Shown here piece after piece: positions 1 to 64,000 of a stretch of DNA of 64,000 nt; positions within the stretch are counted from its first letter, which is position 1; each line of letters begins with the position of its first letter. The notes under the pieces are model-generated. The model saw nothing but the letters and a program-made list of their open reading frames with translations. It was not told where the DNA came from and made no database searches. The position numbers and the translations under genes were made by a program. This DNA comes from Pempheris klunzingeri (taxonomy: Eukaryota > Chordata > Actinopteri > Acropomatiformes > Pempheridae). Location of the stretch: contig NC_092035.1 of the NCBI RefSeq assembly GCF_042242105.1, forward strand, positions 11,822,477 through 11,886,476, read 5' to 3'.

Positions 1-46
1 GTACTTGGATGGGAGACCGCCTGGGAATACCAGGTGCTGTAAGCTT
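1..46 (+). rRNA. 5S rRNA gene 1, 3' part only (beta-like)
   Basis: Only gene positions 75-120 lie in the window. G82 is present, as in all cluster-closing genes, and spacer L1 follows, so it is the last gene of a cluster. Positions 12 and 56 are outside the window. Confidence 0.95.
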
Positions 47-49
47 TTT
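45..49 (+). terminator. Pol III T5 terminator (L and M5 type)
   Basis: Five T follow the GCTGTAAGC end of the gene. Genes before L and M5 spacers share this T5, which is enough for vertebrate Pol III. The equivalent site is at gene positions 119-123 in each such copy. Confidence 0.85.
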
Positions 50-63
50 CTCTTGTCTTTTGC

Positions 64-84
64 AGACAGCAGAGGGCGCTGTCT
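64..84 (+). promoter_or_regulatory. CTCF-like motif within an inverted repeat
   Basis: Positions 66-79 match 13 of 14 positions of the CTCF core consensus CCASYAGRKGGCRS, failing only the first C. The motif sits in AGACAGC-7 nt-GCTGTCT, a perfect 7-bp inverted repeat. It occurs at the same place in each L spacer. The short spacers have two further mismatches. Binding is inferred, not shown. Confidence 0.45.
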
Positions 85-487
85 CTGGACTTCACAACAA
101 AAGTTTTTCATGGTCCTATTCAGTGTTTGCATCCATTACTGACAAGCCTATGCTGTTCTCTGCTGGACTACACTGACATACAAAGCACATGAAGCTAACA
201 TTACACACACTCAACCTCCAACTATGCCAAACGACAAACAGGCCTTTTCAGTCAGTATCAATGAGAAACTGACACATTTGGTGCCCTTAATAGTCAAACA
301 TTAAACAAAAGTAACCACACTCTCCTCCTTTTTGGGGAACACATTTGTTGTTTTAACGATATCCTTGTTTTCTCCTACACTCTCAAAATAACAGCCCCAG
401 CCTCCTCACTGTAAAAGGGACCAATTTAGCAACTTTAACAAAAGACCTATTACTGAAGAGTGCTGTCCCAAACTACAGGTCAGCATC

Positions 488-494
488 TATAAAA
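488..494 (+). promoter_or_regulatory. TATA-like element at -31 of 5S genes
   Basis: TATAAAA lies at -31 to -25 before gene 2, and the same element precedes every complete gene at the same distance. Upstream TATA-like boxes near -30 are known for teleost 5S genes and help place TFIIIB. Base -1 is C in all copies seen. Base -10 is T in cluster-opening genes and in 40 of 57 closers, otherwise G. Confidence 0.8.
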
Positions 495-518
495 AGCCTC
501 TTTGTGAGTGACACTCTC

Positions 519-638
519 GCTTACGGCCATACCACCCTGAACAAGCCCGATCTCGTCCGATCTCGGAAGCCAAGCAGGGTCGGGCCTGGTTAGTACTTGC
601 ATGGGAGACCGCCTGGGAATACCAGGTGCTGTAAGCTT
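519..638 (+). rRNA. 5S rRNA gene 2 (alpha; reference copy)
   Basis: This 120-nt RNA belongs to the large ribosomal subunit, where it binds uL18 and uL5; free RNA binds TFIIIA. Positions 1-9 pair with 110-118 (helix I). The internal promoter is box A at 50-64, the intermediate element at 67-72 and box C at 80-97. Start and end follow helix I and the T-run. It is alpha type (T12, G56, C82). C82 replaces the near-universal G82 and would break the G82-C94 pair of helix IV, so whether alpha RNA is fully functional is open. Gene 1 of 4 in cluster 1; -10 is T; an M5 spacer follows with a T at 685 shared only with the next cluster. Confidence 0.97.
568..615 (+). promoter_or_regulatory. 5S internal control region (box A, IE, box C)
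   Basis: By homology with the Xenopus 5S gene, box A is 568-582, the intermediate element 585-590 and box C 598-615. TFIIIA binds box C and IE, and TFIIIC then joins. Alpha and beta differ inside box A (G56 or A56) and inside box C (C82 or G82). The region repeats in each complete gene. Confidence 0.85.
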
Positions 639-792
639 TTTCTCTTCTCTTTTGCAGACAGCAGAAGGTGCTGCTGCTTCACAGTAGACGGACAAGACGT
701 TTGACCTTTGAACTCCTGTTTTGGTGAAGTTCATTCACTGCTTTTTCTACAGGTCAGCATCTATAAAAAGCCTCTTTGTGAGGGACACTCTC
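639..792 (+). repeat. M5 spacer, reference (154 bp)
   Basis: A TTTCTCTTCTCTTTTGCAG tract, the inverted repeat CAGCAG-6 nt-CTGCTG, then sequence leading to a second TTTTTCTACAG tract and the next promoter (-10 G). There are 36 such spacers, nearly always after the first gene of a cluster. This copy has T at 685, normally G. Confidence 0.9.
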
Positions 793-912
793 GCTTACGG
801 CCATACCACCCTGAACAAGCCCGATCTCGTCCGATCTCGGAAGCCAAGCAGGGTCGGGCCTGGTTAGTACTTGCATGGGAGACCGCCTGGGAATACCAGG
901 TGCTGTAAGCTT
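793..912 (+). rRNA. 5S rRNA gene 3 (alpha)
   Basis: Alpha type, -10 G, gene 2 of 4 in cluster 1. An S spacer follows. Confidence 0.96.
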
Positions 913-914
913 TT
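911..914 (+). terminator. Pol III T4 terminator (S type)
   Basis: Four T then GCAG. The 13-bp shorter S spacer leaves exactly T4, the usual minimum for Pol III. Same in all genes followed by S. Confidence 0.8.
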
Positions 915-1053
915 GCAGACAGCAGAAGGTGCTGCTGCTTCACAGGAGACGGACAAGACGTTTGACCTTTGAACTCCTGTTTTGCTGAAGTTCATTCACT
1001 GCTTTTTCTACAGGTCAGCATCTATAAAAAGCCTCTTTGTGAGGGACACTCTC
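913..1053 (+). repeat. S spacer, reference (141 bp)
   Basis: Identical in plan to M5 but lacking 13 bp of the pyrimidine tract, so the gene runs directly into TTTTGCAG. 57 copies. This copy has TTTTGCTGAAG instead of TTTTGGTGAAG, a variant found in 11 S spacers, ten of which lead to a gene followed by M3. Confidence 0.9.
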
Positions 1054-1173
1054 GCTTACGGCCATACCACCCTGAACAAGCCCGATCTCGTCCGATCTCG
1101 GAAGCCAAGCAGGGTCGGGCCTGGTTAGTACTTGCATGGGAGACCGCCTGGGAATACCAGGTGCTGTAAGCTT
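1054..1173 (+). rRNA. 5S rRNA gene 4 (alpha)
   Basis: Alpha type, -10 G, gene 3 of 4 in cluster 1. An M3 spacer follows, so the terminator is only T3. Confidence 0.96.
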
Positions 1174-1188
1174 TGTCTCTTCTCTTTT
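1172..1188 (+). terminator. Weak T3 terminator with backup T4 (M3 type)
   Basis: The gene ends in TTTG (1172-1174) rather than TTTTT. The next T-run is TTTT at 1185-1188. Read-through would lengthen the RNA by about 14-15 nt. The arrangement is shared by all 18 genes before M3 spacers. Confidence 0.6.
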
Positions 1189-1327
1189 GCAGACAGCAGA
1201 AGGTGCTGCTGCTTCACAGGAGACGGACAAGACGTTTGACCTTTGAACTCCTGTTTTGGTGAAGTTCATTCACTGCTTTTTCTACAGGTCAGCATCTATA
1301 AAAAGCCTCTTTGTGAGGGACACTCTC
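1174..1327 (+). repeat. M3 spacer, reference (154 bp)
   Basis: Same length and plan as M5 but with a T-to-G change that cuts the first T-run to three. 18 copies, found mostly just before the cluster-closing gene. Confidence 0.9.
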
Positions 1328-1447
1328 GCTTACGGCCACACCACCCTGAACAAGCCCGATCTCGTCCGATCTCGGAAGCCAAACAGGGTCGGGCCTGGTT
1401 AGTACTTGGATGGGAGACCGCCTGGGAATACCAGGTGCTGTAAGCTT
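1328..1447 (+). rRNA. 5S rRNA gene 5 (beta; reference copy)
   Basis: Beta type: C12, A56, G82. G82 restores the conserved helix IV pair. A56 changes box A, and as I recall is also an oocyte-type base in Xenopus laevis 5S. It closes cluster 1 (gene 4 of 4), -10 is G, and L2 follows. Confidence 0.96.
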
Positions 1448-1919
1448 TTTCTCTTGTCTTTTGCAGACAGCAGAGGGCGCTGTCTCTGGACTTCACAACA
1501 AAAGTTTTTCATGGTCCTATTCAGTGTTTGCATCCATTACTGACAAGCCTATGCTGTTCTCTGCTGGACTACACTGACATACAAAGCACATGAAGCTAAC
1601 ATTACACACACTCAACCTCCAACTATGCCAAACGACAAACAGGCCTTTTCAGTCAGTATCAATGAGAAACTGACACATTTGGTGCCCTTAATAGTCAAAC
1701 ATTAAACAAAAGTAACCACACTCTCCTCCTTTTTGGGGAACACATTTGTTGTTTTAACGATATCCTTGTTTTCTCCTACACTCTCAAAATAACAGCCCCA
1801 GCCTCCTCACTGTAAAAGGGACCAATTTAGCAACTTTAACAAAAGACCTATTACTGAAGAGTGCTGTCCCAAACTACAGGTCAGCATCTATAAAAAGCCT
1901 CTTTGTGAGTGACACTCTC
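1448..1919 (+). repeat. Long spacer L2
   Basis: Same as L1; no difference noticed. Confidence 0.9.
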
Positions 1920-2193: not shown

Positions 2194-2313
2194 GCTTACG
2201 GCCATACCACCCTGAACAAGCCCGATCTCGTCCGATCTCGGAAGCCAAGCAGGGTCGGGCCTGGTTAGTACTTGGATGGGAGACCGCCTGGGAATACCAG
2301 GTGCTGTAAGCTT
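2194..2313 (+). rRNA. 5S rRNA gene 7 (mixed T12/G56/G82)
   Basis: Alpha front with beta G82, closest to the general vertebrate sequence. Gene 2 of 4 in cluster 2, -10 G, S follows (with GCTGAAG). Confidence 0.96.
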
Positions 2314-3320: not shown

Positions 3321-3440
3321 GCTTACGGCCATACCACCCTGAACAAGCCCGATCTCGTCCGATCTCGGAAGCCAAGCAGGGTCGGGCCTGGTTAGTACTT
3401 GCATGGGAGACCGCCTGGGAATACCAGGTGCTGTAAGCTT
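3321..3440 (+). rRNA. 5S rRNA gene 10 (alpha)
   Basis: Alpha, -10 T, opens two-gene cluster 3. S follows. Confidence 0.96.
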
Positions 3441-3581
3441 TTGCAGACAGCAGAAGGTGCTGCTGCTTCACAGGAGACGGACAAGACGTTTGACCTTTGA
3501 ACTCCTGTTTTGGTGAAGTTCATTCACTGCTTTTTCTACAGGTCAGCATCTATAAAAAGCCTCTTTGTGAGTGACACTCTC

Positions 3582-3701
3582 GCTTACGGCCACACCACCC
3601 TGAACAAGCCCGATCTCGTCCGATCTCGGAAGCCAAACAGGGTCGGGCCTGGTTAGTACTTGGATGGGAGACCGCCTGGGAATACCAGGTGCTGTAAGCT
3701 T
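3582..3701 (+). rRNA. 5S rRNA gene 11 (beta)
   Basis: Beta, -10 T, closes cluster 3. Confidence 0.96.
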
Positions 3702-4173
3702 TTTCTCTTGTCTTTTGCAGACAGCAGAGGGCGCTGTCTCTGGACTTCACAACAAAAGTTTTTCATGGTCCTATTCAGTGTTTGCATCCATTACTGACAA
3801 GCCTATGCTGTTCTCTGCTGGACTACACTGACATACAAAGCACATGAAGCTAACATTACACACACTCAACCTCCAACTATGCCAAACGACAAACAGGCCT
3901 TTTCAGTCAGTATCAATGAGAAACTGACACATTTGGTGCCCTTAATAGTCAAACATTAAACAAAAGTAACCACACTCTCCTCCTTTTTGGGGAACACATT
4001 TGTTGTTTTAACGATATCCTTGTTTTCTCCTACACTCTCAAAATAACAGCCCCAGCCTCCTCACTGTAAAAGGGACCAATTTAGCAACTTTAACAAAAGA
4101 CCTATTACTGAAGAGTGCTGTCCCAAACTACAGGTCAGCATCTATAAAAAGCCTCTTTGTGAGTGACACTCTC
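3702..4173 (+). repeat. Long spacer L4
   Basis: No difference from L1 noticed. Confidence 0.9.
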
Positions 4174-5835: not shown

Positions 5836-5955
5836 GCTTACGGCCATACCACCCTGAACAAGCCCGATCTCGTCCGATCTCGGAAGCCAAACAGGGTCGG
5901 GCCTGGTTAGTACTTGGATGGGAGACCGCCTGGGAATACCAGGTGCTGTAAGCTT
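5836..5955 (+). rRNA. 5S rRNA gene 17 (mixed T12/A56/G82)
   Basis: Alpha at 12 and beta at 56 and 82, which suggests a crossover or conversion edge between 12 and 56. Gene 3 of 4 in cluster 5, -10 G, S follows. Confidence 0.96.
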
Positions 5956-7223: not shown

Positions 7224-7353
7224 GCTTACGGCCACACCACCCTGAACAAGCCCGATCTCGCCCGATCTCGTCCGATCTCGGAAGCCAAACAGGGTCGGGC
7301 CTGGTTAGTACTTGGATGGGAGACCGCCTGGGAATACCAGGTGCTGTAAGCTT
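7224..7353 (+). rRNA. 5S rRNA gene 21 (beta, 10-nt insertion; possible pseudogene)
   Basis: 130 nt long. The decamer CCCGATCTCG (positions 28-37) is duplicated, giving three tandem near-copies instead of two. This lengthens the helix III / loop C arm and moves the internal promoter 10 bp away from the start and TATA element. Beta bases otherwise, -10 T, closes cluster 6. Confidence 0.9.
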
Positions 7354-8099: not shown

Positions 8100-8209
8100 G
8101 CTTACGGCCATACCACCCTGAACAAGCCCGATCTCGGAAGCCAAGCAGGGTCGGGCCTGGTTAGTACTTGCATGGGAGACCGCCTGGGAATACCAGGTGC
8201 TGTAAGCTT
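8100..8209 (+). rRNA. 5S rRNA gene 23 (alpha, 10-nt deletion; probable pseudogene)
   Basis: 110 nt. One of the two near-identical decamers at 28-37 and 38-47 is missing, removing most of the loop C arm bound by uL18/uL5, so a working RNA is unlikely. Alpha bases remain. Gene 2 of 4 in cluster 7; M3 follows with C-to-T at 8287. Confidence 0.9.
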
Positions 8210-10343: not shown

Positions 10344-10463
10344 GCTTACGGCCATACCACCCTGAACAAGCCCGATCTCGTCAGATCTCGGAAGCCAAGC
10401 AGGGTCGGGCCTGGTTAGTACTTGCATGGGAGACCGCCTGGGAATACCAGGTGCTGTAAGCTT
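10344..10463 (+). rRNA. 5S rRNA gene 29 (alpha, C40A)
   Basis: Alpha with C40A in loop C (10383), -10 T. Opens the only six-gene cluster (9). The M5 spacer has G-to-T at 10501 and T-to-C at 10504. Confidence 0.95.
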
Positions 10464-10617
10464 TTTCTCTTCTCTTTTGCAGACAGCAGAAGGTGCTGCT
10501 TCTCCACAGGAGACGGACAAGACGTTTGACCTTTGAACTCCTGTTTTGGTGAAGTTCATTCACTGCTTTTTCTACAGGTCAGCATCTATAAAAAGCCTCT
10601 TTGTGAGGGACACTCTC

Positions 10618-10737
10618 GCTTACGGCCATACCACCCTGAACAAGCCCGATCTCGTCCGATCTCGGAAGCCAAGCAGGGTCGGGCCTGGTTAGTACTTGCA
10701 TGGGAGACCGCCTGGGAATACCAGGTGCTGTAAGCTT
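10618..10737 (+). rRNA. 5S rRNA gene 30 (alpha)
   Basis: Alpha, -10 G, gene 2 of 6 in cluster 9. The M5 spacer has G-to-T at 10775. This is the only M5 after a gene that does not open a cluster. Confidence 0.96.
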
Positions 10738-10891
10738 TTTCTCTTCTCTTTTGCAGACAGCAGAAGGTGCTGCTTCTTCACAGGAGACGGACAAGACGTT
10801 TGACCTTTGAACTCCTGTTTTGGTGAAGTTCATTCACTGCTTTTTCTACAGGTCAGCATCTATAAAAAGCCTCTTTGTGAGGGACACTCTC

Positions 10892-11011
10892 GCTTACGGC
10901 CATACCACCCTGAACAAGCCCGATCTCGTCCGATCTCGGAAGCCAAGCAGGGTCGGGCCTGGTTAGTACTTGCATGGGAGACCGCCTGGGAATACCAGGT
11001 GCTGTAAGCTT
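10892..11011 (+). rRNA. 5S rRNA gene 31 (alpha)
   Basis: Alpha, -10 G, gene 3 of 6 in cluster 9. M3 follows with C-to-T at 11089, as after genes 23 and 26. Confidence 0.96.
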
Positions 11012-11165
11012 TGTCTCTTCTCTTTTGCAGACAGCAGAAGGTGCTGCTGCTTCACAGGAGACGGACAAGACGTTTGACCTTTGAACTCTTGTTTTGGTGA
11101 AGTTCATTCACTGCTTTTTCTACAGGTCAGCATCTATAAAAAGCCTCTTTGTGAGGGACACTCTC

Positions 11166-11285
11166 GCTTACGGCCATACCACCCTGAACAAGCCCGATCT
11201 CGTCCGATCTCGGAAGCCAAACAGGGTCGGGCCTGGTTAGTACTTGGATGGGAGACCGCCTGGGAATACCAGGTGCTGTAAGCTT
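11166..11285 (+). rRNA. 5S rRNA gene 32 (mixed T12/A56/G82)
   Basis: Mixed type, -10 G, gene 4 of 6 in cluster 9. S follows. Confidence 0.96.
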
Positions 11286-11426
11286 TTGCAGACAGCAGAA
11301 GGTGCTGCTGCTTCACAGGAGACGGACAAGACGTTTGACCTTTGAACTCCTGTTTTGGTGAAGTTCATTCACTGCTTTTTCTACAGGTCAGCATCTATAA
11401 AAAGCCTCTTTGTGAGGGACACTCTC

Positions 11427-11546
11427 GCTTACGGCCATACCACCCTGAACAAGCCCGATCTCGTCCGATCTCGGAAGCCAAGCAGGGTCGGGCCTGGTTA
11501 GTACTTGGATGGGAGACCGCCTGGGAATACCAGGTGCTGTAAGCTT
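11427..11546 (+). rRNA. 5S rRNA gene 33 (mixed T12/G56/G82)
   Basis: Mixed type as gene 7, -10 G, gene 5 of 6 in cluster 9. S follows. Confidence 0.96.
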
Positions 11547-11687
11547 TTGCAGACAGCAGAAGGTGCTGCTGCTTCACAGGAGACGGACAAGACGTTTGAC
11601 CTTTGAACTCCTGTTTTGGTGAAGTTCATTCACTGCTTTTTCTACAGGTCAGCATCTATAAAAAGCCTCTTTGTGAGGGACACTCTC

Positions 11688-11807
11688 GCTTACGGCCACA
11701 CCACCCTGAACAAGCCCGATCTCGTCCAATCTCGGAAGCCAAACAGGGTCGGGCCTGGTTAGTACTTGGATGGGAGACCGCCTGGGAATACCAGGTGCTG
11801 TAAGCTT
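11688..11807 (+). rRNA. 5S rRNA gene 34 (beta, G41A)
   Basis: Beta with G41A (11728) in loop C, -10 G, closes cluster 9. Confidence 0.95.
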
Positions 11808-12279
11808 TTTCTCTTGTCTTTTGCAGACAGCAGAGGGCGCTGTCTCTGGACTTCACAACAAAAGTTTTTCATGGTCCTATTCAGTGTTTGCATCCATTAC
11901 TGACAAGCCTATGCTGTTCTCTGCTGGACTACACTGACATACAAAGCACATGAAGCTAACATTACACACACTCAACCTCCAACTATGCCAAACGACAAAC
12001 AGGCCTTTTCAGTCAGTATCAATGAGAAACTGACACATTTGGTGCCCTTAATAGTCAAACATTAAACAAAAGTAACCACACTCTCCTCCTTTTTGGGGAA
12101 CACATTTGTTGTTTTAACGATATCCTTGTTTTCTCCTACACTCTCAAAATAACAGCCCCAGCCTCCTCACTGTAAAAGGGACCAATTTAGCAACTTTAAC
12201 AAAAGACCTATTACTGAAGAGTGTTGTCCCAAACTACAGGTCAGCATCTATAAAAAGCCTCTTTGTGAGTGACACTCTC
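11808..12279 (+). repeat. Long spacer L10
   Basis: C-to-T at 12224; otherwise like L1. Confidence 0.9.
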
Positions 12280-13075: not shown

Positions 13076-13195
13076 GCTTACGGCCATACCACCCTGAACA
13101 AGCCCGATCTCGTCCGATCTCGGAAGCCAAACAGGGTCGGGCCTGGTTAGTACTTGGATGGGAGACCGCCTGGGAATACCAGGTGCTGTAAGCTT
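13076..13195 (+). rRNA. 5S rRNA gene 38 (mixed T12/A56/G82)
   Basis: The only complete cluster-closing gene with T12 instead of C12. Same type as its neighbour gene 37, so local conversion is likely. -10 G, closes cluster 10. Confidence 0.96.
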
Positions 13196-48692: not shown

Positions 48693-48812
48693 GCTTACGG
48701 CCATACCACCCTGAACAAGCCCGATCTCGTCCGATCTCGGAAGCCAAGCAGGGTCGGGCCTGGTTAGTACTTGCATGGGAGACCGCCTGGGAATACCAGG
48801 TGCTGTAAGCTT
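48693..48812 (+). rRNA. 5S rRNA gene 130 (alpha)
   Basis: Alpha, -10 T, opens three-gene cluster 44. M5 follows. Confidence 0.96.
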
Positions 48813-48966
48813 TTTCTCTTCTCTTTTGCAGACAGCAGAAGGTGCTGCTGCTTCACAGGAGACGGACAAGACGTTTGACCTTTGAACTCCTGTTTTGGTG
48901 AAGTTCATTCACTGCTTTTTCTACAGGTCAGCATCTATAAAAAGCCTCTTTGTGAGGGACACTCTC

Positions 48967-49086
48967 GCTTACGGCCATACCACCCTGAACAAGCCCGATC
49001 TCGTCCGATCTCGGAAGCCAAGCAGGGTCGGGCCTGGTTAGTACTTGCATGGGAGACCGCCTGGGAATACCAGGTGCTGTAAGCTT
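48967..49086 (+). rRNA. 5S rRNA gene 131 (alpha)
   Basis: Alpha, -10 G, gene 2 of 3 in cluster 44. M3 follows. Confidence 0.96.
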
Positions 49087-49240
49087 TGTCTCTTCTCTTT
49101 TGCAGACAGCAGAAGGTGCTGCTGCTTCACAGGAGACGGACAAGACGTTTGACCTTTGAACTCCTGTTTTGGTGAAGTTCATTCACTGCTTTTTCTACAG
49201 GTCAGCATCTATAAAAAGCCTCTTTGTGAGGGACACTCTC

Positions 49241-49360
49241 GCTTACGGCCACACCACCCTGAACAAGCCCGATCTCGTCCGATCTCGGAAGCCAAACAGG
49301 GTCGGGCCTGGTTAGTACTTGGATGGGAGACCGCCTGGGAATACCAGGTGCTGTAAGCTT
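49241..49360 (+). rRNA. 5S rRNA gene 132 (beta)
   Basis: Beta, -10 G, closes cluster 44. Confidence 0.96.
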
Positions 49361-49832
49361 TTTCTCTTGTCTTTTGCAGACAGCAGAGGGCGCTGTCTCT
49401 GGACTTCACAACAAAAGTTTTTCATGGTCCTATTCAGTGTTTGCATCCATTACTGACAAGCCTATGCTGTTCTCTGCTGGACTACACTGACATACAAAGC
49501 ACATGAAGCTAACATTACACACACTCAACCTCCAACTATGCCAAACGACAAACAGGCCTTTTCAGTCAGTATCAATGAGAAACTGACACATTTGGTGCCC
49601 TTAATAGTCAAACATTAAACAAAAGTAACCACACTCTCCTCCTTTTTGGGGAACACATTTGTTGTTTTAACGATATCCTTGTTTTCTCCTACACTCTCAA
49701 AATAACAGCCCCAGCCTCCTCACTGTAAAAGGGACCAATTTAGCAACTTTAACAAAAGACCTATTACTGAAGAGTGCTGTCCCAAACTACAGGTCAGCAT
49801 CTATAAAAAGCCTCTTTGTGAGTGACACTCTC
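49361..49832 (+). repeat. Long spacer L45
   Basis: No difference from L1 noticed. Confidence 0.9.
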
Positions 49833-49952
49833 GCTTACGGCCATACCACCCTGAACAAGCCCGATCTCGTCCGATCTCGGAAGCCAAGCAGGGTCGGGCC
49901 TGGTTAGTACTTGCATGGGAGACCGCCTGGGAATACCAGGTGCTGTAAGCTT
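49833..49952 (+). rRNA. 5S rRNA gene 133 (alpha)
   Basis: Alpha, -10 T, opens two-gene cluster 45. S follows. Confidence 0.96.
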
Positions 49953-50093
49953 TTGCAGACAGCAGAAGGTGCTGCTGCTTCACAGGAGACGGACAAGACG
50001 TTTGACCTTTGAACTCCTGTTTTGGTGAAGTTCATTCACTGCTTTTTCTACAGGTCAGCATCTATAAAAAGCCTCTTTGTGAGTGACACTCTC

Positions 50094-50213
50094 GCTTACG
50101 GCCACACCACCCTGAACAAGCCCGATCTCGTCCGATCTCGGAAGCCAAACAGGGTCGGGCCTGGTTAGTACTTGGATGGGAGACCGCCTGGGAATACCAG
50201 GTGCTGTAAGCTT
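50094..50213 (+). rRNA. 5S rRNA gene 134 (beta)
   Basis: Beta, -10 T, closes cluster 45. Confidence 0.96.
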
Positions 50214-50685
50214 TTTCTCTTGTCTTTTGCAGACAGCAGAGGGCGCTGTCTCTGGACTTCACAACAAAAGTTTTTCATGGTCCTATTCAGTGTTTGCATC
50301 CATTACTGACAAGCCTATGCTGTTCTCTGCTGGACTACACTGACATACAAAGCACATGAAGCTAACATTACACACACTCAACCTCCAACTATGCCAAACG
50401 ACAAACAGGCCTTTTCAGTCAGTATCAATGAGAAACTGACACATTTGGTGCCCTTAATAGTCAAACATTAAACAAAAGTAACCACACTCTCCTCCTTTTT
50501 GGGGAACACATTTGTTGTTTTAACGATATCCTTGTTTTCTCCTACACTCTCAAAATAACAGCCCCAGCCTCCTCACTGTAAAAGGGACCAATTTAGCAAC
50601 TTTAACAAAAGACCTATTACTGAAGAGTGCTGTCCCAAACTACAGGTCAGCATCTATAAAAAGCCTCTTTGTGAGTGACACTCTC
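50214..50685 (+). repeat. Long spacer L46
   Basis: No difference from L1 noticed. Confidence 0.9.
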
Positions 50686-50805
50686 GCTTACGGCCATACC
50701 ACCCTGAACAAGCCCGATCTCGTCCGATCTCGGAAGCCAAGCAGGGTCGGGCCTGGTTAGTACTTGCATGGGAGACCGCCTGGGAATACCAGGTGCTGTA
50801 AGCTT
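50686..50805 (+). rRNA. 5S rRNA gene 135 (alpha)
   Basis: Alpha, -10 T, opens two-gene cluster 46. S follows. Confidence 0.96.
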
Positions 50806-50946
50806 TTGCAGACAGCAGAAGGTGCTGCTGCTTCACAGGAGACGGACAAGACGTTTGACCTTTGAACTCCTGTTTTGGTGAAGTTCATTCACTGCTTTTT
50901 CTACAGGTCAGCATCTATAAAAAGCCTCTTTGTGAGTGACACTCTC

Positions 50947-51066
50947 GCTTACGGCCACACCACCCTGAACAAGCCCGATCTCGTCCGATCTCGGAAGCCA
51001 AACAGGGTCGGGCCTGGTTAGTACTTGGATGGGAGACCGCCTGGGAATACCAGGTGCTGTAAGCTT
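50947..51066 (+). rRNA. 5S rRNA gene 136 (beta)
   Basis: Beta, -10 T, closes cluster 46. Confidence 0.96.
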
Positions 51067-51538
51067 TTTCACTTGTCTTTTGCAGACAGCAGAGGGCGCT
51101 GTCTCTGGACTTCACAACAAAAGTTTTTCATGGTCCTATTCAGTGTTTGCATCCATTACTGACAAGCCTATGCTGTTCTCTGCTGGACTACACTGACATA
51201 CAAAGCACATGAAGCTAACATTACACACACTCAACCTCCAACTATGCCAAACGACAAACAGGCCTTTTCAGTCAGTATCAATGAGAAACTGACACATTTG
51301 GTGCCCTTAATAGTCAAACATTAAACAAAAGTAACCACACTCTCCTCCTTTTTGGGGAACACATTTGTTGTTTTAACGATATCCTTGTTTTCTCCTACAC
51401 TCTCAAAATAACAGCCCCAGCCTCCTCACTGTAAAAGGGACCAATTTAGCAACTTTAACAAAAGACCTATTACTGAAGAGTGCTGTCCCAAACTACAGGT
51501 CAGCATCTATAAAAAGCCTCTTTGTGAGTGACACTCTC
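51067..51538 (+). repeat. Long spacer L47 (variant)
   Basis: T-to-A at 51071, just after the T5 run; shared only with L53. Confidence 0.9.
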
Positions 51539-51658
51539 GCTTACGGCCATACCACCCTGAACAAGCCCGATCTCGTCCGATCTCGGAAGCCAAGCAGGGT
51601 CGGGCCTGGTTAGTACTTGCATGGGAGACCGCCTGGGAATACCAGGTGCTGTAAGCTT
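51539..51658 (+). rRNA. 5S rRNA gene 137 (alpha)
   Basis: Alpha, -10 T, opens three-gene cluster 47. M5 follows. Confidence 0.96.
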
Positions 51659-51812
51659 TTTCTCTTCTCTTTTGCAGACAGCAGAAGGTGCTGCTGCTTC
51701 ACAGGAGACGGACAAGACGTTTGACCTTTGAACTCCTGTTTTGGTGAAGTTCATTCACTGCTTTTTCTACAGGTCAGCATCTATAAAAAGCCTCTTTGTG
51801 AGGGACACTCTC

Positions 51813-51932
51813 GCTTACGGCCATACCACCCTGAACAAGCCCGATCTCGTCCGATCTCGGAAGCCAAGCAGGGTCGGGCCTGGTTAGTACTTGCATGGGA
51901 GACCGCCTGGGAATACCAGGTGCTGTAAGCTT
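51813..51932 (+). rRNA. 5S rRNA gene 138 (alpha)
   Basis: Alpha, -10 G, gene 2 of 3 in cluster 47. S follows. Confidence 0.96.
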
Positions 51933-52073
51933 TTGCAGACAGCAGAAGGTGCTGCTGCTTCACAGGAGACGGACAAGACGTTTGACCTTTGAACTCCTGT
52001 TTTGGTGAAGTTCATTCACTGCTTTTTCTACAGGTCAGCATCTATAAAAAGCCTCTTTGTGAGTGACACTCTC

Positions 52074-52193
52074 GCTTACGGCCACACCACCCTGAACAAG
52101 CCCGATCTCGTCCGATCTCGGAAGCCAAACAGGGTCGGGCCTGGTTAGTACTTGGATGGGAGACCGCCTGGGAATACCAGGTGCTGTAAGCTT
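52074..52193 (+). rRNA. 5S rRNA gene 139 (beta)
   Basis: Beta, -10 T, closes cluster 47. Confidence 0.96.
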
Positions 52194-52665
52194 TTTCTCT
52201 TGTCTTTTGCAGACAGCAGAGGGCGCTGTCTCTGGACTTCACAACAAAAGTTTTTCATGGTCCTATTCAGTGTTTGCATCCATTACTGACAAGCCTATGC
52301 TGTTCTCTGCTGGACTACACTGACATACAAAGCACATGAAGCTAACATTACACACACTCAACCTCCAACTATGCCAAACGACAAACAGGCCTTTTCAGTC
52401 AGTATCAATGAGAAACTGACACATTTGGTGCCCTTAATAGTCAAACATTAAACAAAAGTAACCACACTCTCCTCCTTTTTGGGGAACACATTTGTTGTTT
52501 TAACGATATCCTTGTTTTCTCCTACACTCTCAAAATAACAGCCCCAGCCTCCTCACTGTAAAAGGGACCAATTTAGCAACTTTAACAAAAGACCTATTAC
52601 TGAAGAGTGCTGTCCCAAACTACAGGTCAGCATCTATAAAAAGCCTCTTTGTGAGTGACACTCTC
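52194..52665 (+). repeat. Long spacer L48
   Basis: No difference from L1 noticed. Confidence 0.9.
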
Positions 52666-52785
52666 GCTTACGGCCATACCACCCTGAACAAGCCCGATCT
52701 CGTCCGATCTCGGAAGCCAAGCAGGGTTGGGCCTAGTTAGTACTTGCATGGGAGACCGCCTGGGAATACCAGGTGCTGTAAGCTT
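52666..52785 (+). rRNA. 5S rRNA gene 140 (alpha, C63T, G70A)
   Basis: Copy of gene 125 with the same two internal-promoter changes. -10 T, opens three-gene cluster 48. M5 follows. Confidence 0.94.
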
Positions 52786-52939
52786 TTTCTCTTCTCTTTT
52801 GCAGACAGCAGAAGGTGCTGCTGCTTCACAGGAGACGGACAAGACGTTTGACCTTTGAACTCCTGTTTTGGTGAAGTTCATTCACTGCTTTTTCTACAGG
52901 TCAGCATCTATAAAAAGCCTCTTTGTGAGGGACACTCTC

Positions 52940-53059
52940 GCTTACGGCCATACCACCCTGAACAAGCCCGATCTCGTCCGATCTCGGAAGCCAAGCAGGG
53001 TCGGGCCTGGTTAGTACTTGCATGGGAGACCGCCTGGGAATACCAGGTGCTGTAAGCTT
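52940..53059 (+). rRNA. 5S rRNA gene 141 (alpha)
   Basis: Alpha, -10 G, gene 2 of 3 in cluster 48. S follows. Confidence 0.96.
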
Positions 53060-53200
53060 TTGCAGACAGCAGAAGGTGCTGCTGCTTCACAGGAGACGGA
53101 CAAGACGTTTGACCTTTGAACTCCTGTTTTGGTGAAGTTCATTCACTGCTTTTTCTACAGGTCAGCATCTATAAAAAGCCTCTTTGTGAGTGACACTCTC

Positions 53201-53320
53201 GCTTACGGCCACACCACCCTGAACAAGCCCGATCTCGTCCGATCTCGGAAGCCAAACAGGGTCGGGCCTGGTTAGTACTTGGATGGGAGACCGCCTGGGA
53301 ATACCAGGTGCTGTAAGCTT
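53201..53320 (+). rRNA. 5S rRNA gene 142 (beta)
   Basis: Beta, -10 T, closes cluster 48. Confidence 0.96.
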
Positions 53321-53792
53321 TTTCTCTTGTCTTTTGCAGACAGCAGAGGGCGCTGTCTCTGGACTTCACAACAAAAGTTTTTCATGGTCCTATTCAGTGT
53401 TTGCATCCATTACTGACAAGCCTATGCTGTTCTCTGCTGGACTACACTGACATACAAAGCACATGAAGCTAACATTACACACACTCAACCTCCAACTATG
53501 CCAAACGACAAACAGGCCTTTTCAGTCAGTATCAATGAGAAACTGACACATTTGGTGCCCTTAATAGTCAAACATTAAACAAAAGTAACCACACTCTCCT
53601 CCTTTTTGGGGAACACATTTGTTGTTTTAACGATATCCTTGTTTTCTCCTACACTCTCAAAATAACAGCCCCAGCCTCCTCACTGTAAAAGGGACCAATT
53701 TAGCAACTTTAACAAAAGACCTATTACTGAAGAGTGCTGTCCCAAACTACAGGTCAGCATCTATAAAAAGCCTCTTTGTGAGTGACACTCTC
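53321..53792 (+). repeat. Long spacer L49
   Basis: No difference from L1 noticed. Confidence 0.9.
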
Positions 53793-53912
53793 GCTTACGG
53801 CCATACCACCCTGAACAAGCCCGATCTCGTCCGATCTCGGAAGCCAAGCAGGGTCGGGCCTGGTTAGTACTTGCATGGGAGACCGCCTGGGAATACCAGG
53901 TGCTGTAAGCTT
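53793..53912 (+). rRNA. 5S rRNA gene 143 (alpha)
   Basis: Alpha, -10 T, opens two-gene cluster 49. S follows. Confidence 0.96.
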
Positions 53913-54053
53913 TTGCAGACAGCAGAAGGTGCTGCTGCTTCACAGGAGACGGACAAGACGTTTGACCTTTGAACTCCTGTTTTGGTGAAGTTCATTCACT
54001 GCTTTTTCTACAGGTCAGCATCTATAAAAAGCCTCTTTGTGAGTGACACTCTC

Positions 54054-54173
54054 GCTTACGGCCACACCACCCTGAACAAGCCCGATCTCGTCCGATCTCG
54101 GAAGCCAAACAGGGTCGGGCCTGGTTAGTACTTGGATGGGAGACCGCCTGGGAATACCAGGTGCTGTAAGCTT
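54054..54173 (+). rRNA. 5S rRNA gene 144 (beta)
   Basis: Beta, -10 T, closes cluster 49. Confidence 0.96.
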
Positions 54174-54645
54174 TTTCTCTTGTCTTTTGCAGACAGCAGA
54201 GGGCGCTGTCTCTGGACTTCACAACAAAAGTTTTTCATGGTCCTATTCAGTGTTTGCATCCATTACTGACAAGCCTATGCTGTTCTCTGCTGGACTACAC
54301 TGACATACAAAGCACATGAAGCTAACATTACACACACTCAACCTCCAACTATGCCAAACGACAAACAGGCCTTTTCAGTCAGTATCAATGAGAAACTGAC
54401 ACATTTGGTGCCCTTAATAGTCAAACATTAAACAAAAGTAACCACACTCTCCTCCTTTTTGGGGAACACATTTGTTGTTTTAACGATATCCTTGTTTTCT
54501 CCTACACTCTCAAAATAACAGCCCCAGCCTCCTCACTGTAAAAGGGACCAATTTAGCAACTTTAACAAAAGACCTATTACTGAAGAGTGCTGTCCCAAAC
54601 TACAGGTCAGCATCTATAAAAAGCCTCTTTGTGAGTGACACTCTC
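54174..54645 (+). repeat. Long spacer L50
   Basis: No difference from L1 noticed. Confidence 0.9.
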
Positions 54646-54765
54646 GCTTACGGCCATACCACCCTGAACAAGCCCGATCTCGTCCGATCTCGGAAGCCAA
54701 GCAGGGTCGGGCCTGGTTAGTACTTGCATGGGAGACCGCCTGGGAATACCAGGTGCTGTAAGCTT
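54646..54765 (+). rRNA. 5S rRNA gene 145 (alpha)
   Basis: Alpha, -10 T, opens three-gene cluster 50. M5 follows. Confidence 0.96.
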
Positions 54766-54919
54766 TTTCTCTTCTCTTTTGCAGACAGCAGAAGGTGCTG
54801 CTGCTTCACAGGAGACGGACAAGACGTTTGACCTTTGAACTCCTGTTTTGGTGAAGTTCATTCACTGCTTTTTCTACAGGTCAGCATCTATAAAAAGCCT
54901 CTTTGTGAGGGACACTCTC

Positions 54920-55039
54920 GCTTACGGCCATACCACCCTGAACAAGCCCGATCTCGTCCGATCTCGGAAGCCAAGCAGGGTCGGGCCTGGTTAGTACTTG
55001 CATGGGAGACCGCCTGGGAATACCAGGTGCTGTAAGCTT
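54920..55039 (+). rRNA. 5S rRNA gene 146 (alpha)
   Basis: Alpha, -10 G, gene 2 of 3 in cluster 50. M3 follows. Confidence 0.96.
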
Positions 55040-55193
55040 TGTCTCTTCTCTTTTGCAGACAGCAGAAGGTGCTGCTGCTTCACAGGAGACGGACAAGACG
55101 TTTGACCTTTGAACTCCTGTTTTGGTGAAGTTCATTCACTGCTTTTTCTACAGGTCAGCATCTATAAAAAGCCTCTTTGTGAGGGACACTCTC

Positions 55194-55313
55194 GCTTACG
55201 GCCACACCACCCTGAACAAGCCCGATCTCGTCCGATCTCGGAAGCCAAACAGGGTCGGGCCTGGTTAGTACTTGGATGGGAGACCGCCTGGGAATACCAG
55301 GTGCTGTAAGCTT
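55194..55313 (+). rRNA. 5S rRNA gene 147 (beta)
   Basis: Beta, -10 G, closes cluster 50. Confidence 0.96.
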
Positions 55314-55785
55314 TTTCTCTTGTCTTTTGCAGACAGCAGAGGGCGCTGTCTCTGGACTTCACAACAAAAGTTTTTCATGGTCCTATTCAGTGTTTGCATC
55401 CATTACTGACAAGCCTATGCTGTTCTCTGCTGGACTACACTGACATACAAAGCACATGAAGCTAACATTACACACACTCAACCTCCAACTATGCCAAACG
55501 ACAAACAGGCCTTTTCAGTCAGTATCAATGAGAAACTGACACATTTGGTGCCCTTAATAGTCAAACATTAAACAAAAGTAACCACACTCTCCTCCTTTTT
55601 GGGGAACACATTTGTTGTTTTAACGATATCCTTGTTTTCTCCTACACTCTCAAAATAACAGCCCCAGCCTCCTCACTGTAAAAGGGACCAATTTAGCAAC
55701 TTTAACAAAAGACCTATTACTGAAGAGTGCTGTCCCAAACTACAGGTCAGCATCTATAAAAAGCCTCTTTGTGAGTGACACTCTC
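55314..55785 (+). repeat. Long spacer L51
   Basis: No difference from L1 noticed. Confidence 0.9.
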
Positions 55786-55905
55786 GCTTACGGCCATACC
55801 ACCCTGAACAAGCCCGATCTCGTCCGATCTCGGAAGCCAAGCAGGGTCGGGCCTGGTTAGTACTTGCATGGGAGACCGCCTGGGAATACCAGGTGCTGTA
55901 AGCTT
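55786..55905 (+). rRNA. 5S rRNA gene 148 (alpha)
   Basis: Alpha, -10 T, opens two-gene cluster 51. S follows. Confidence 0.96.
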
Positions 55906-56046
55906 TTGCAGACAGCAGAAGGTGCTGCTGCTTCACAGGAGACGGACAAGACGTTTGACCTTTGAACTCCTGTTTTGGTGAAGTTCATTCACTGCTTTTT
56001 CTACAGGTCAGCATCTATAAAAAGCCTCTTTGTGAGTGACACTCTC

Positions 56047-56166
56047 GCTTACGGCCACACCACCCTGAACAAGCCCGATCTCGTCCGATCTCGGAAGCCA
56101 AACAGGGTCGGGCCTGGTTAGTACTTGGATGGGAGACCGCCTGGGAATACCAGGTGCTGTAAGCTT
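56047..56166 (+). rRNA. 5S rRNA gene 149 (beta)
   Basis: Beta, -10 T, closes cluster 51. Confidence 0.96.
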
Positions 56167-56638
56167 TTTCTCTTGTCTTTTGCAGACAGCAGAGGGCGCT
56201 GTCTCTGGACTTCACAACAAAAGTTTTTCATGGTCCTATTCAGTGTTTGCATCCATTACTGACAAGCCTATGCTGTTCTCTGCTGGACTACACTGACATA
56301 CAAAGCACATGAAGCTAACATTACACACACTCAACCTCCAACTATGCCAAACGACAAACAGGCCTTTTCAGTCAGTATCAATGAGAAACTGACACATTTG
56401 GTGCCCTTAATAGTCAAACATTAAACAAAAGTAACCACACTCTCCTCCTTTTTGGGGAACACATTTGTTGTTTTAACGATATCCTTGTTTTCTCCTACAC
56501 TCTCAAAATAACAGCCCCAGCCTCCTCACTGTAAAAGGGACCAATTTAGCAACTTTAACAAAAGACCTATTACTGAAGAGTGCTGTCCCAAACTACAGGT
56601 CAGCATCTATAAAAAGCCTCTTTGTGAGTGACACTCTC
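56167..56638 (+). repeat. Long spacer L52
   Basis: No difference from L1 noticed. Confidence 0.9.
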
Positions 56639-56758
56639 GCTTACGGCCATACCACCCTGAACAAGCCCGATCTCGTCCGATCTCGGAAGCCAAGCAGGGT
56701 CGGGCCTGGTTAGTACTTGCATGGGAGACCGCCTGGGAATACCAGGTGCTGTAAGCTT
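56639..56758 (+). rRNA. 5S rRNA gene 150 (alpha)
   Basis: Alpha, -10 T, opens two-gene cluster 52. S follows. Confidence 0.96.
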
Positions 56759-56899
56759 TTGCAGACAGCAGAAGGTGCTGCTGCTTCACAGGAGACGGAC
56801 AAGACGTTTGACCTTTGAACTCCTGTTTTGGTGAAGTTCATTCACTGCTTTTTCTACAGGTCAGCATCTATAAAAAGCCTCTTTGTGAGTGACACTCTC

Positions 56900-57019
56900 G
56901 CTTACGGCCACACCACCCTGAACAAGCCCGATCTCGTCCGATCTCGGAAGCCAAACAGGGTCGGGCCTGGTTAGTACTTGGATGGGAGACCGCCTGGGAA
57001 TACCAGGTGCTGTAAGCTT
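56900..57019 (+). rRNA. 5S rRNA gene 151 (beta)
   Basis: Beta, -10 T, closes cluster 52. Confidence 0.96.
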
Positions 57020-57491
57020 TTTCACTTGTCTTTTGCAGACAGCAGAGGGCGCTGTCTCTGGACTTCACAACAAAAGTTTTTCATGGTCCTATTCAGTGTT
57101 TGCATCCATTACTGACAAGCCTATGCTGTTCTCTGCTGGACTACACTGACATACAAAGCACATGAAGCTAACATTACACACACTCAACCTCCAACTATGC
57201 CAAACGACAAACAGGCCTTTTCAGTCAGTATCAATGAGAAACTGACACATTTGGTGCCCTTAATAGTCAAACATTAAACAAAAGTAACCACACTCTCCTC
57301 CTTTTTGGGGAACACATTTGTTGTTTTAACGATATCCTTGTTTTCTCCTACACTCTCAAAATAACAGCCCCAGCCTCCTCACTGTAAAAGGGACCAATTT
57401 AGCAACTTTAACAAAAGACCTATTACTGAAGAGTGCTGTCCCAAACTACAGGTCAGCATCTATAAAAAGCCTCTTTGTGAGTGACACTCTC
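57020..57491 (+). repeat. Long spacer L53 (variant)
   Basis: T-to-A at 57024, the duplicate of 51071. Confidence 0.9.
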
Positions 57492-57611
57492 GCTTACGGC
57501 CATACCACCCTGAACAAGCCCGATCTCGTCCGATCTCGGAAGCCAAGCAGGGTCGGGCCTGGTTAGTACTTGCATGGGAGACCGCCTGGGAATACCAGGT
57601 GCTGTAAGCTT
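57492..57611 (+). rRNA. 5S rRNA gene 152 (alpha)
   Basis: Alpha, -10 T, opens three-gene cluster 53. M5 follows. Confidence 0.96.
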
Positions 57612-57765
57612 TTTCTCTTCTCTTTTGCAGACAGCAGAAGGTGCTGCTGCTTCACAGGAGACGGACAAGACGTTTGACCTTTGAACTCCTGTTTTGGTGA
57701 AGTTCATTCACTGCTTTTTCTACAGGTCAGCATCTATAAAAAGCCTCTTTGTGAGGGACACTCTC

Positions 57766-57885
57766 GCTTACGGCCATACCACCCTGAACAAGCCCGATCT
57801 CGTCCGATCTCGGAAGCCAAGCAGGGTCGGGCCTGGTTAGTACTTGCATGGGAGACCGCCTGGGAATACCAGGTGCTGTAAGCTT
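57766..57885 (+). rRNA. 5S rRNA gene 153 (alpha)
   Basis: Alpha, -10 G, gene 2 of 3 in cluster 53. S follows. Confidence 0.96.
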
Positions 57886-58026
57886 TTGCAGACAGCAGAA
57901 GGTGCTGCTGCTTCACAGGAGACGGACAAGACGTTTGACCTTTGAACTCCTGTTTTGGTGAAGTTCATTCACTGCTTTTTCTACAGGTCAGCATCTATAA
58001 AAAGCCTCTTTGTGAGTGACACTCTC

Positions 58027-58146
58027 GCTTACGGCCACACCACCCTGAACAAGCCCGATCTCGTCCGATCTCGGAAGCCAAACAGGGTCGGGCCTGGTTA
58101 GTACTTGGATGGGAGACCGCCTGGGAATACCAGGTGCTGTAAGCTT
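58027..58146 (+). rRNA. 5S rRNA gene 154 (beta)
   Basis: Beta, -10 T, closes cluster 53. Confidence 0.96.
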
Positions 58147-58618
58147 TTTCTCTTGTCTTTTGCAGACAGCAGAGGGCGCTGTCTCTGGACTTCACAACAA
58201 AAGTTTTTCATGGTCCTATTCAGTGTTTGCATCCATTACTGACAAGCCTATGCTGTTCTCTGCTGGACTACACTGACATACAAAGCACATGAAGCTAACA
58301 TTACACACACTCAACCTCCAACTATGCCAAACGACAAACAGGCCTTTTCAGTCAGTATCAATGAGAAACTGACACATTTGGTGCCCTTAATAGTCAAACA
58401 TTAAACAAAAGTAACCACACTCTCCTCCTTTTTGGGGAACACATTTGTTGTTTTAACGATATCCTTGTTTTCTCCTACACTCTCAAAATAACAGCCCCAG
58501 CCTCCTCACTGTAAAAGGGACCAATTTAGCAACTTTAACAAAAGACCTATTACTGAAGAGTGCTGTCCCAAACTACAGGTCAGCATCTATAAAAAGCCTC
58601 TTTGTGAGTGACACTCTC
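58147..58618 (+). repeat. Long spacer L54
   Basis: No difference from L1 noticed. Confidence 0.9.
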
Positions 58619-61681: not shown

Positions 61682-61801
61682 GCTTACGGCCATACCACCC
61701 TGAACAAGCCCGATCTCGTCCGATCTCGGAAGCCAAGCAGGGTCGGGCCTGGTTAGTACTTGCATGGGAGACCGCCTGGGAATACCAGGTGCTGTAAGCT
61801 T
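61682..61801 (+). rRNA. 5S rRNA gene 164 (alpha)
   Basis: Alpha, -10 G, gene 2 of 4 in cluster 56. S (GCTGAAG) follows. Confidence 0.96.
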
Positions 61802-61942
61802 TTGCAGACAGCAGAAGGTGCTGCTGCTTCACAGGAGACGGACAAGACGTTTGACCTTTGAACTCCTGTTTTGCTGAAGTTCATTCACTGCTTTTTCTAC
61901 AGGTCAGCATCTATAAAAAGCCTCTTTGTGAGGGACACTCTC

Positions 61943-62062
61943 GCTTACGGCCATACCACCCTGAACAAGCCCGATCTCGTCCGATCTCGGAAGCCAAGCA
62001 GGGTCGGGCCTGGTTAGTACTTGCATGGGAGACCGCCTGGGAATACCAGGTGCTGTAAGCTT
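61943..62062 (+). rRNA. 5S rRNA gene 165 (alpha)
   Basis: Alpha, -10 G, gene 3 of 4 in cluster 56. M3 follows. Confidence 0.96.
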
Positions 62063-62216
62063 TGTCTCTTCTCTTTTGCAGACAGCAGAAGGTGCTGCTG
62101 CTTCACAGGAGACGGACAAGACGTTTGACCTTTGAACTCCTGTTTTGGTGAAGTTCATTCACTGCTTTTTCTACAGGTCAGCATCTATAAAAAGCCTCTT
62201 TGTGAGGGACACTCTC

Positions 62217-62336
62217 GCTTACGGCCACACCACCCTGAACAAGCCCGATCTCGTCTGATCTCGGAAGCCAAACAGGGTCGGGCCTGGTTAGTACTTGGAT
62301 GGGAGACCGCCTGGGAATACCAGGTGCTGTAAGCTT
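62217..62336 (+). rRNA. 5S rRNA gene 166 (beta, C40T)
   Basis: Beta with C40T (62256), the base usual in mammals and Xenopus at this loop C site. -10 G, closes cluster 56. Confidence 0.95.
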
Positions 62337-62808
62337 TTTCTCTTGTCTTTTGCAGACAGCAGAGGGCGCTGTCTCTGGACTTCACAACAAAAGTTTTTCA
62401 TGGTCCTATTCAGTGTTTGCATCCATTACTGACAAGCCTATGCTGTTCTCTGCTGGACTACACTGACATACAAAGCACATGAAGCTAACATTACACACAC
62501 TCAACCTCCAACTATGCCAAACGACAAACAGGCCTTTTCAGTCAGTATCAATGAGAAACTGACACATTTGGTGCCCTTAATAGTCAAACATTAAACAAAA
62601 GTAACCACACTCTCCTCCTTTTTGGGGAACACATTTGTTGTTTTAACGATATCCTTGTTTTCTCCTACACTCTCAAAATAACAGCCCCAGCCTCCTCACT
62701 GTAAAAGGGACCAATTTAGCAACTTTAACAAAAGACCTATTACTGAAGAGTGCTGTCCCAAACTACAGGTCAGCATCTATAAAAAGCCTCTTTGTGAGTG
62801 ACACTCTC
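62337..62808 (+). repeat. Long spacer L57
   Basis: No difference from L1 noticed. Confidence 0.9.
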
Positions 62809-62928
62809 GCTTACGGCCATACCACCCTGAACAAGCCCGATCTCGTCCGATCTCGGAAGCCAAGCAGGGTCGGGCCTGGTTAGTACTTGCATGGGAGACC
62901 GCCTGGGAATACCAGGTGCTGTAAGCTT
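62809..62928 (+). rRNA. 5S rRNA gene 167 (alpha)
   Basis: Alpha, -10 T, opens three-gene cluster 57. M5 follows. Confidence 0.96.
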
Positions 62929-63082
62929 TTTCTCTTCTCTTTTGCAGACAGCAGAAGGTGCTGCTGCTTCACAGGAGACGGACAAGACGTTTGACCTTTG
63001 AACTCCTGTTTTGGTGAAGTTCATTCACTGCTTTTTCTACAGGTCAGCATCTATAAAAAGCCTCTTTGTGAGGGACACTCTC

Positions 63083-63202
63083 GCTTACGGCCATACCACC
63101 CTGAACAAGCCCGATCTCGTCCGATCTCGGAAGCCAAACAGGGTCGGGCCTGGTTAGTACTTGGATGGGAGACCGCCTGGGAATACCAGGTGCTGTAAGC
63201 TT
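63083..63202 (+). rRNA. 5S rRNA gene 168 (mixed T12/A56/G82)
   Basis: The only mixed T12/A56/G82 gene outside the first 17 kb. -10 G, gene 2 of 3 in cluster 57. S follows. Confidence 0.96.
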
Positions 63203-63343
63203 TTGCAGACAGCAGAAGGTGCTGCTGCTTCACAGGAGACGGACAAGACGTTTGACCTTTGAACTCCTGTTTTGGTGAAGTTCATTCACTGCTTTTTCTA
63301 CAGGTCAGCATCTATAAAAAGCCTCTTTGTGAGGGACACTCTC

Positions 63344-63463
63344 GCTTACGGCCACACCACCCTGAACAAGCCCGATCTCGTCCGATCTCGGAAGCCAAAC
63401 AGGGTAGGGCCTGGTTAGTACTTGGATGGGAGACCGCCTGGGAATACCAGGTGCTGTAAGCTT
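63344..63463 (+). rRNA. 5S rRNA gene 169 (beta, C63A)
   Basis: Beta with C63A (63406) in box A, -10 G, closes cluster 57. Confidence 0.95.
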
Positions 63464-63935
63464 TTTCTCTTGTCTTTTGCAGACAGCAGAGGGCGCTGTC
63501 TCTGGACTTCACAACAAAAGTTTTTCATGGTCCTATTCAGTGTTTGCATCCATTACTGACAAGCCTATGCTGTTCTCTGCTGGACTACACTGACATACAA
63601 AGCACATGAAGCTAACATTACACACACTCAACCTCCAACTATGCCAAACGACAAACAGGCCTTTTCAGTCAGTATCAATGAGAAACTGACACATTTGGTG
63701 CCCTTAATAGTCAAACATTAAACAAAAGTAACCACACTCTCCTCCTTTTTGGGGAACACATTTGTTGTTTTAACGATATCCTTGTTTTCTCCTACACTCT
63801 CAAAATAACAGCCCCAGCCTCCTCACTGTAAAAGGGACCAATTTAGCAACTTTAACAAAAGACCTATTACTGAAGAGTGCTGTCCCAAACTACAGGTCAG
63901 CATCTATAAAAAGCCTCTTTGTGAGTGACACTCTC
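63464..63935 (+). repeat. Long spacer L58
   Basis: No difference from L1 noticed. Confidence 0.9.
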
Positions 63936-64000
63936 GCTTACGGCCATACCACCCTGAACAAGCCCGATCTCGTCCGATCTCGGAAGCCAAGCAGGGTCGG
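63936..64000 (+). rRNA. 5S rRNA gene 170, 5' part only (alpha-like)
   Basis: Positions 1-65 are present with T12 and G56; the rest is beyond the window. -10 T and a preceding L spacer make it a cluster opener. Confidence 0.95.

Follow-up and report, generated by a model that had tools for sequence, protein, structure and literature searches.

The 64-kb stretch of DNA analysed here (the window) is a single head-to-tail array of 5S ribosomal DNA (5S rDNA), and the end of the array is not reached inside it. Our script delimits 168 complete 5S genes, of which 162 measure 118 bp, three 128 bp and three 108 bp, together with a partial gene at either edge of the window. Rfam family RF00001 was assigned to each of the best 150 of 169 matches. 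Exact scans with a 37-base stretch from the beginning of the gene had no hits in viral contigs and none in contigs of bacterial and archaeal genomes. Complete genes are separated by spacers of three lengths, namely 143 bp (s, 57 copies), 156 bp (S, 54 copies) and 474 bp (L, 56 copies); an extra complete L lies at each window edge, and both are the commonest L with zero mismatches. The whole is a 5S rDNA array of the animal or vertebrate type with a higher-order-repeat structure, which, going by what is familiar of fish 5S genes, we take to be probably teleost-like.

1..64000, + strand: continuous 5S rDNA array with 168 complete genes, 57 complete clusters and a truncated gene at each edge

Genes were typed by their bases at positions 12, 56 and 82, with alpha defined as T/G/C, full beta as C/A/G and the rest as mixed types. 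The 168 genes comprise 101 T/G/C, 55 C/A/G, nine T/A/G, two T/G/G and one C/G/G, that is, 12 of mixed type. Against a gathering score of 38 bits, RF00001 gives 108.7 bits for alpha, 107.1 for beta and 111.4 for T/G/G. Clusters were delimited by cutting the array at L, which yields 57 complete clusters; 32 of the 57 sequences are distinct, and the commonest has 14 identical copies. The elements of the array are exemplified by the following features.

3321..3438, + strand: alpha 5S gene (T12/G56/C82), the type of 101 of the 168 genes
3582..3699, + strand: beta 5S gene (C12/A56/G82), the type of 55 of the 168 genes, with L after each
3700..4173, + strand: long spacer L, 474 bp
3321..4173, + strand: commonest cluster sequence, 853 bp, alpha-s, beta-L, in 14 identical copies
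519..1919, + strand: first complete cluster, 1401 bp, alpha-S, alpha-s, alpha-S, beta-L

The order of the genes within these clusters is nearly invariant. Alpha (T12/G56/C82) opens all 57 clusters and a gene with G82 closes all 57; 55 of the closers are full beta, and the other two are listed below. Every full beta gene is followed by L (55 of 55), and full beta is found in no other position, while the 54 genes that neither open nor close a cluster are alpha (44), T/A/G (8) or T/G/G (2). No cluster consists of a single gene (0 of 57), which is to say that L units are never adjacent, and this absence of touching L units is the non-trivial part of the order. Another part of it is plain linkage, L beginning only 36 bp beyond position 82. 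With 57 L units and 111 short units in random order, ln P of finding no touching L would be -29.9, but this null ignores shared descent; since the copies have a common descent, random order was set aside as a null and the value is descriptive.

13076..13193, + strand: closer without C12 (T12/A56/G82), a hybrid or an intermediate
24366..24483, + strand: closer without A56 (C12/G56/G82), from a short conversion tract or a back change

Clusters contain two genes (22 clusters), three (18), four (16) or six (1). Their lengths are 853 bp (20 clusters), 1127 bp (12), 1401 bp (11), 1388 bp (4), 1137 bp (3), 1140 bp (3), 856 bp (2), 1391 bp (1) and 1936 bp (1). An earlier note on this DNA, made from its letters, had described alpha openers and G82 closers, with 55 full beta closers and pure beta nowhere but before L, and this description holds almost exactly; our counts also agree with its view that what repeats is a cluster of genes whose size varies. 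Its further claim of a fixed ratio between two 5S types is contradicted, as the number of alpha genes varies among clusters of two, three, four and six genes. The five cluster lengths that it listed (853, 1127, 1140, 1388 and 1401 bp) account for 50 of the 57 clusters but miss those of 856, 1137, 1391 and 1936 bp. Clusters of 853 bp number one among the first 16 (1-20997) and 19 among the last 41 (20998-63935).

10344..12279, + strand: largest cluster, six genes, 1936 bp

Position within the cluster is also marked in the spacers. The base at -10 is T for every opener (57) and G for every middle (19) and penultimate (35) gene, and ahead of closers it is T in 40 cases and G in 17. In the 16 four-gene clusters, the series of spacer variants is s2-s4-s5 or s2-s4-s6 in eight, s8-s4-s5 in two and another in six. 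The -10 base, the gene type and the spacer variant all follow cluster position, as in a higher-order repeat, with two, three, four or six genes per repeat in place of a constant number of monomers. In this regard, the array works as a loose, variable-length higher-order repeat.

The 3' end of the L consensus is the same 46 bp as in the consensus of the 143-bp spacer, a tract that includes a TATA-like box and has T at -10. TATAAAA is present in all 19 distinct spacers aligned, and the run of T after the gene has four or five T in 150 of the 168 genes and three T in 18. Judged by sequence, putative RNA polymerase III (Pol III) signals, a T-run terminator and an upstream TATA-like box, are present. 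Eighteen of the 54 156-bp spacers (variants s5, s6 and s7; e.g. 1172-1327) start with three T and not five; 14 of these come after a penultimate gene, three after a middle gene and one after an opener, and the first Pol III stop in them may be leaky. L and S have in common their outer 46 bp and a further tract of about 37 bp. An origin of L as a short spacer plus an insertion was considered and found unsupported, the inner parts giving a local score of 20, a borderline value that 28 of 500 letter shuffles reached. When one copy of L (1446-1919) was searched for an RNA gene, Rfam gave nothing with an E value of 5 or below.

The eight non-closing T/A/G genes are all followed by a 143-bp spacer, and seven of them stand directly before the closer. 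Both T/G/G genes, eight of the nine T/A/G genes and the largest cluster all lie in the first 17 kb; the ninth T/A/G gene is at 63083-63200.

2194..2311, + strand: T12/G56/G82 gene with the top 5S score, 111.4 bits; second copy at 11427-11544
5836..5953, + strand: T12/A56/G82 non-closing gene, one of eight

We consider it quite likely that like-with-like exchange, with L passed on together with the genes at its sides, suffices for this order without selection; that exchange is the mechanism, and that it depends on homology, are both inferences. There would be two classes of unit, an alpha gene with a short spacer and a beta gene with the long spacer L. The close likeness of the L spacers (13 differences from the consensus over 57 copies, or 0.48 per kb) makes it most likely that all trace back to a single L with a beta gene on one side and an alpha gene on the other. 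Further copies would then have arisen by unequal exchange or gene conversion with like units pairing, so that pairing of L with L would yield blocks of whole clusters and pairing of alpha unit with alpha unit would change cluster size. After an exchange within one class, the new junction would repeat an existing one and adjacency would be conserved; as a consequence, alpha after L and beta before L would be inherited without selection.

If an opener alpha exchanged with a closer beta, a single-gene cluster between two L would result; such clusters are absent, so this exchange must be rare. Openers and closers have homology over 46 bp upstream (with one mismatch where -10 is G), over the gene with three differences, and over about 37 bp downstream with three differences when compared to the 156-bp spacer; openers with a 143-bp spacer also miss 13 bp. 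A shared tract of only about 200 bp, interrupted by mismatches, would be a plausible reason for this rarity.

Some exchange appears to have run in the register of several clusters. The longest exact repeat found measures 6,877 bp at an offset of 5,953 bp, and represents a six-cluster tandem duplication.

46713..52665, + strand: six-cluster block, first copy of the 5,953-bp tandem duplication, identity 1.0
52666..58618, + strand: six-cluster block, second copy, identical to the first

Identical clusters form 11 pairs at lag 6 against 3.45 expected, a number reached in none of 2000 shuffles and owed largely to that one duplication. At lag 2 there are seven pairs against 3.75 expected, a weak excess reached in 4.6% of shuffles. 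We have good evidence, then, of a single recent event that duplicated several clusters together, and none that individual neighbours were duplicated. That recombination works on whole clusters, as previously suggested, stands in so far as some exchange runs in multi-cluster register, on the strength of the 6,877-bp repeat and the lag-6 excess. Whole clusters are not the sole scale, however, since the changes in cluster size and the mixed-type genes need events within clusters or surviving intermediates.

Like-with-like pairing was simulated alongside free pairing in ten settings of 200 runs each, and a run counted as ordered if it had 20 or more L units, none of them adjacent. Under the like-with-like rule adjacent L units averaged zero in each of the ten settings, and 1,999 runs out of 2,000 were ordered. 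With free pairing the mean ranged from 2.6 to 18.4 and 25 of 2,000 runs were ordered, all of them with 50 events or fewer. The earlier phrasing, that the two types keep their places despite homogenisation, is in this light misleading, as like-with-like exchange kept the order automatically in the simulation. If this explanation is right, the array would show that two gene types can hold their position in a homogenising array without selection, and the register of exchange in a gene array would be readable base by base over a long stretch.

Several points weigh against this explanation. The simulation is simple, with two block-size settings, no gene conversion and an ordered array at the start; it demonstrates sufficiency and not necessity, and a young array with low turnover would look ordered too. 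Lags 1, 3, 4 and 5 lack any excess of identical clusters (2, 2, 6 and 3 pairs against 3.5 to 3.8 expected), and therefore the evidence for blocks comes mainly from one duplication. Additionally, the 12 mixed-type genes among 168 mean that alpha and beta swap short pieces or have a common intermediate.

The probabilities that we attach to like-with-like exchange and to its rivals are not meant to sum to one. The strongest rival, which overlaps with it, is that a few founder clusters were amplified too recently for disordering under any pairing rule. The exact 5,953-bp duplication, the 14 identical 853-bp clusters and the very few differences among L copies all fit a young array, and free pairing itself stayed ordered in 6 and 17 of 200 runs with 25 events and in 0 and 2 of 200 with 50 events. 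At 100 events or more, however, none of the 200 runs of any setting was ordered, and cluster sizes from two to six, position-specific spacers, mixed-type genes and length variants point toward many past events. We regard youth by itself as an unlikely explanation, though one that deserves some weight.

A further rival is that selection keeps the order, L or beta having a job (a chromatin boundary, a spacing element, a needed beta RNA) and the clusters that lose it being removed. The absence of any exception among 57 openers and 57 G82 closers would fit such selection, as would the lower variability of L (0.48 per kb) compared with alpha (1.19) and beta (1.86) genes. The low variation of L, however, also fits recent copying and its few CpG positions (6 of 474, against 14 of 118 in the gene), and the L copy that was tested matches no RNA family. 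Beta, in turn, looks no better kept than alpha, with 15 of 55 copies off consensus against 13 of 101 (Fisher p 0.03, a weak contrast because several copies are identical by descent), and the dose is not fixed. Selection for the order appears doubtful. Finally, that the placement of reads by a repeat assembler makes the order look too clean is very improbable: although an array that spans the whole window and contains an exact 5,953-bp tandem duplication is error-prone ground for assemblers, a context of only about 850 bp, below the length of ordinary long reads, is enough to establish the order at each L, and 32 of the 57 cluster sequences are distinct.

With regard to the origin of the two gene types, the cmscan 5S consensus has U, G and G at positions 12, 56 and 82. 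T/G/G matches it at all three, alpha departs at 82 and beta at 12 and 56; the Xenopus oocyte 5S gene likewise has A at 56. On a simple reading, T/G/G would be ancestral, with alpha one step away and beta two steps away via T/A/G. The T/A/G genes could in that case be old intermediates and not hybrids, and the two T/G/G genes are possible relics of the ancestral type. The idea that C82 breaks a stem in alpha was dropped, given that positions 12, 56 and 82 all fall in unpaired columns of the cmscan structure.

Taking box A as 50-64, which includes position 56, and box C as 80-97, which includes 82 (limits from a figure legend in PMC3342222), alpha and beta each deviate from the 5S consensus in a different putative promoter box. 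The predicted fold energy is -48.3 for beta and -46.7 for alpha, values computed without a shuffle control. As to whether beta is a pseudogene, it is near-consensus at 107.1 bits, yet it has A56 in box A and 10-bp length changes in 5 of 55 copies. We give little credence to the possibility that alpha and beta are two regulated 5S isotypes, set apart by their box A and box C differences and locked together in each cluster; if they were, the ratio of isotypes would depend on cluster size, and the arrangement would be safeguarded by like-with-like exchange.

Variation within the genes was counted in the 118-bp genes only, that is, in 100 of 101 alpha and 50 of 55 beta; the 12 genes of mixed type and the six length variants were excluded. 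Eleven of the 17 distinct gene variants, alpha and beta being counted apart, fall at CpG, which makes up 14 of the 118 positions (binomial p 4e-7); counted by distinct position, CpG variants are 7 of 13 (p 3e-4). The decay of methylated cytosine predicts C-to-T or G-to-A changes, and seven of the 11 CpG variants are of this kind, the other four being other changes. This pattern suggests that germline CpG methylation, such as that described for pike 5S (PMC5437419), would explain part of the gene variation. Genes are usually better conserved than spacers, yet here they vary more than L; the short spacers are the most variable part, with about 4 differences per kb that reflect their positional variants.

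Multi-gene 5S repeat units are familiar from the oocyte genes of Xenopus, where clusters are split by long spacers in X. borealis and the unit is a gene plus a pseudogene in X. laevis. The present array resembles them in having several genes per unit and long spacers between clusters, but its gene types keep a strict order, and the gene that closes a cluster is close to the 5S consensus and not evidently a pseudogene. Grey mullets (Liza, Chelon) carry a mixture of two 5S unit types at a single locus, according to a citation in PMC3123226, and are alike in keeping two repeat types in one fish locus; they differ in that the citing passage mentions neither an opener/closer order nor a variable cluster. 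The same paper cites three 5S unit types in one array of grapevine. Excerpts of PMC5437419 describe pikes (Esox) with higher-order 5S arrays in which spacer variants are phased and CpG is heavily methylated, likewise tandem arrays of a fish; there, the major spacer-length variants lie in separate arrays but for one read, whereas short and long spacers alternate by rule in the window.

According to excerpts of PMC12953832, zebrafish has maternal and somatic 5S types on different chromosomes and with differing expression. The likeness lies in having two slightly different 5S types per genome, but here both are in one array. Oocyte and somatic genes occupy separate arrays in zebrafish and Xenopus, while alpha and full beta stand together in 55 of the 57 clusters; the array is not assigned to the oocyte/somatic dual 5S systems. 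In the large yellow croaker, the 5S copies are reported in an excerpt of PMC12631908 to lie 98 bp apart, against 143, 156 and 474 bp here. Within the titles and abstract openings of the open-licence papers listed, no description of an alpha-opener, beta-closer order was found, nor was one seen in the parts of PMC10138776, PMC12294053, PMC6562748 and PMC3503869 that were available. Mixed 5S arrays are already known, and the strict order over 57 clusters makes this one a well-resolved example.

The six genes that deviate from 118 bp are distributed as follows.

7224..7351, + strand: beta gene with a 10-bp gain (128 bp); the same at 15591-15718 and 18129-18256, in three identical 1137-bp clusters
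26633..26740, + strand: beta gene with a 10-bp loss (108 bp); the same at 39917-40024, in two identical 856-bp clusters
8100..8207, + strand: alpha gene with a 10-bp loss (108 bp)

These 10-bp gains and losses sit at an internal 10-bp repeat of the gene, which starts at about gene position 27, and five of the six are in beta.

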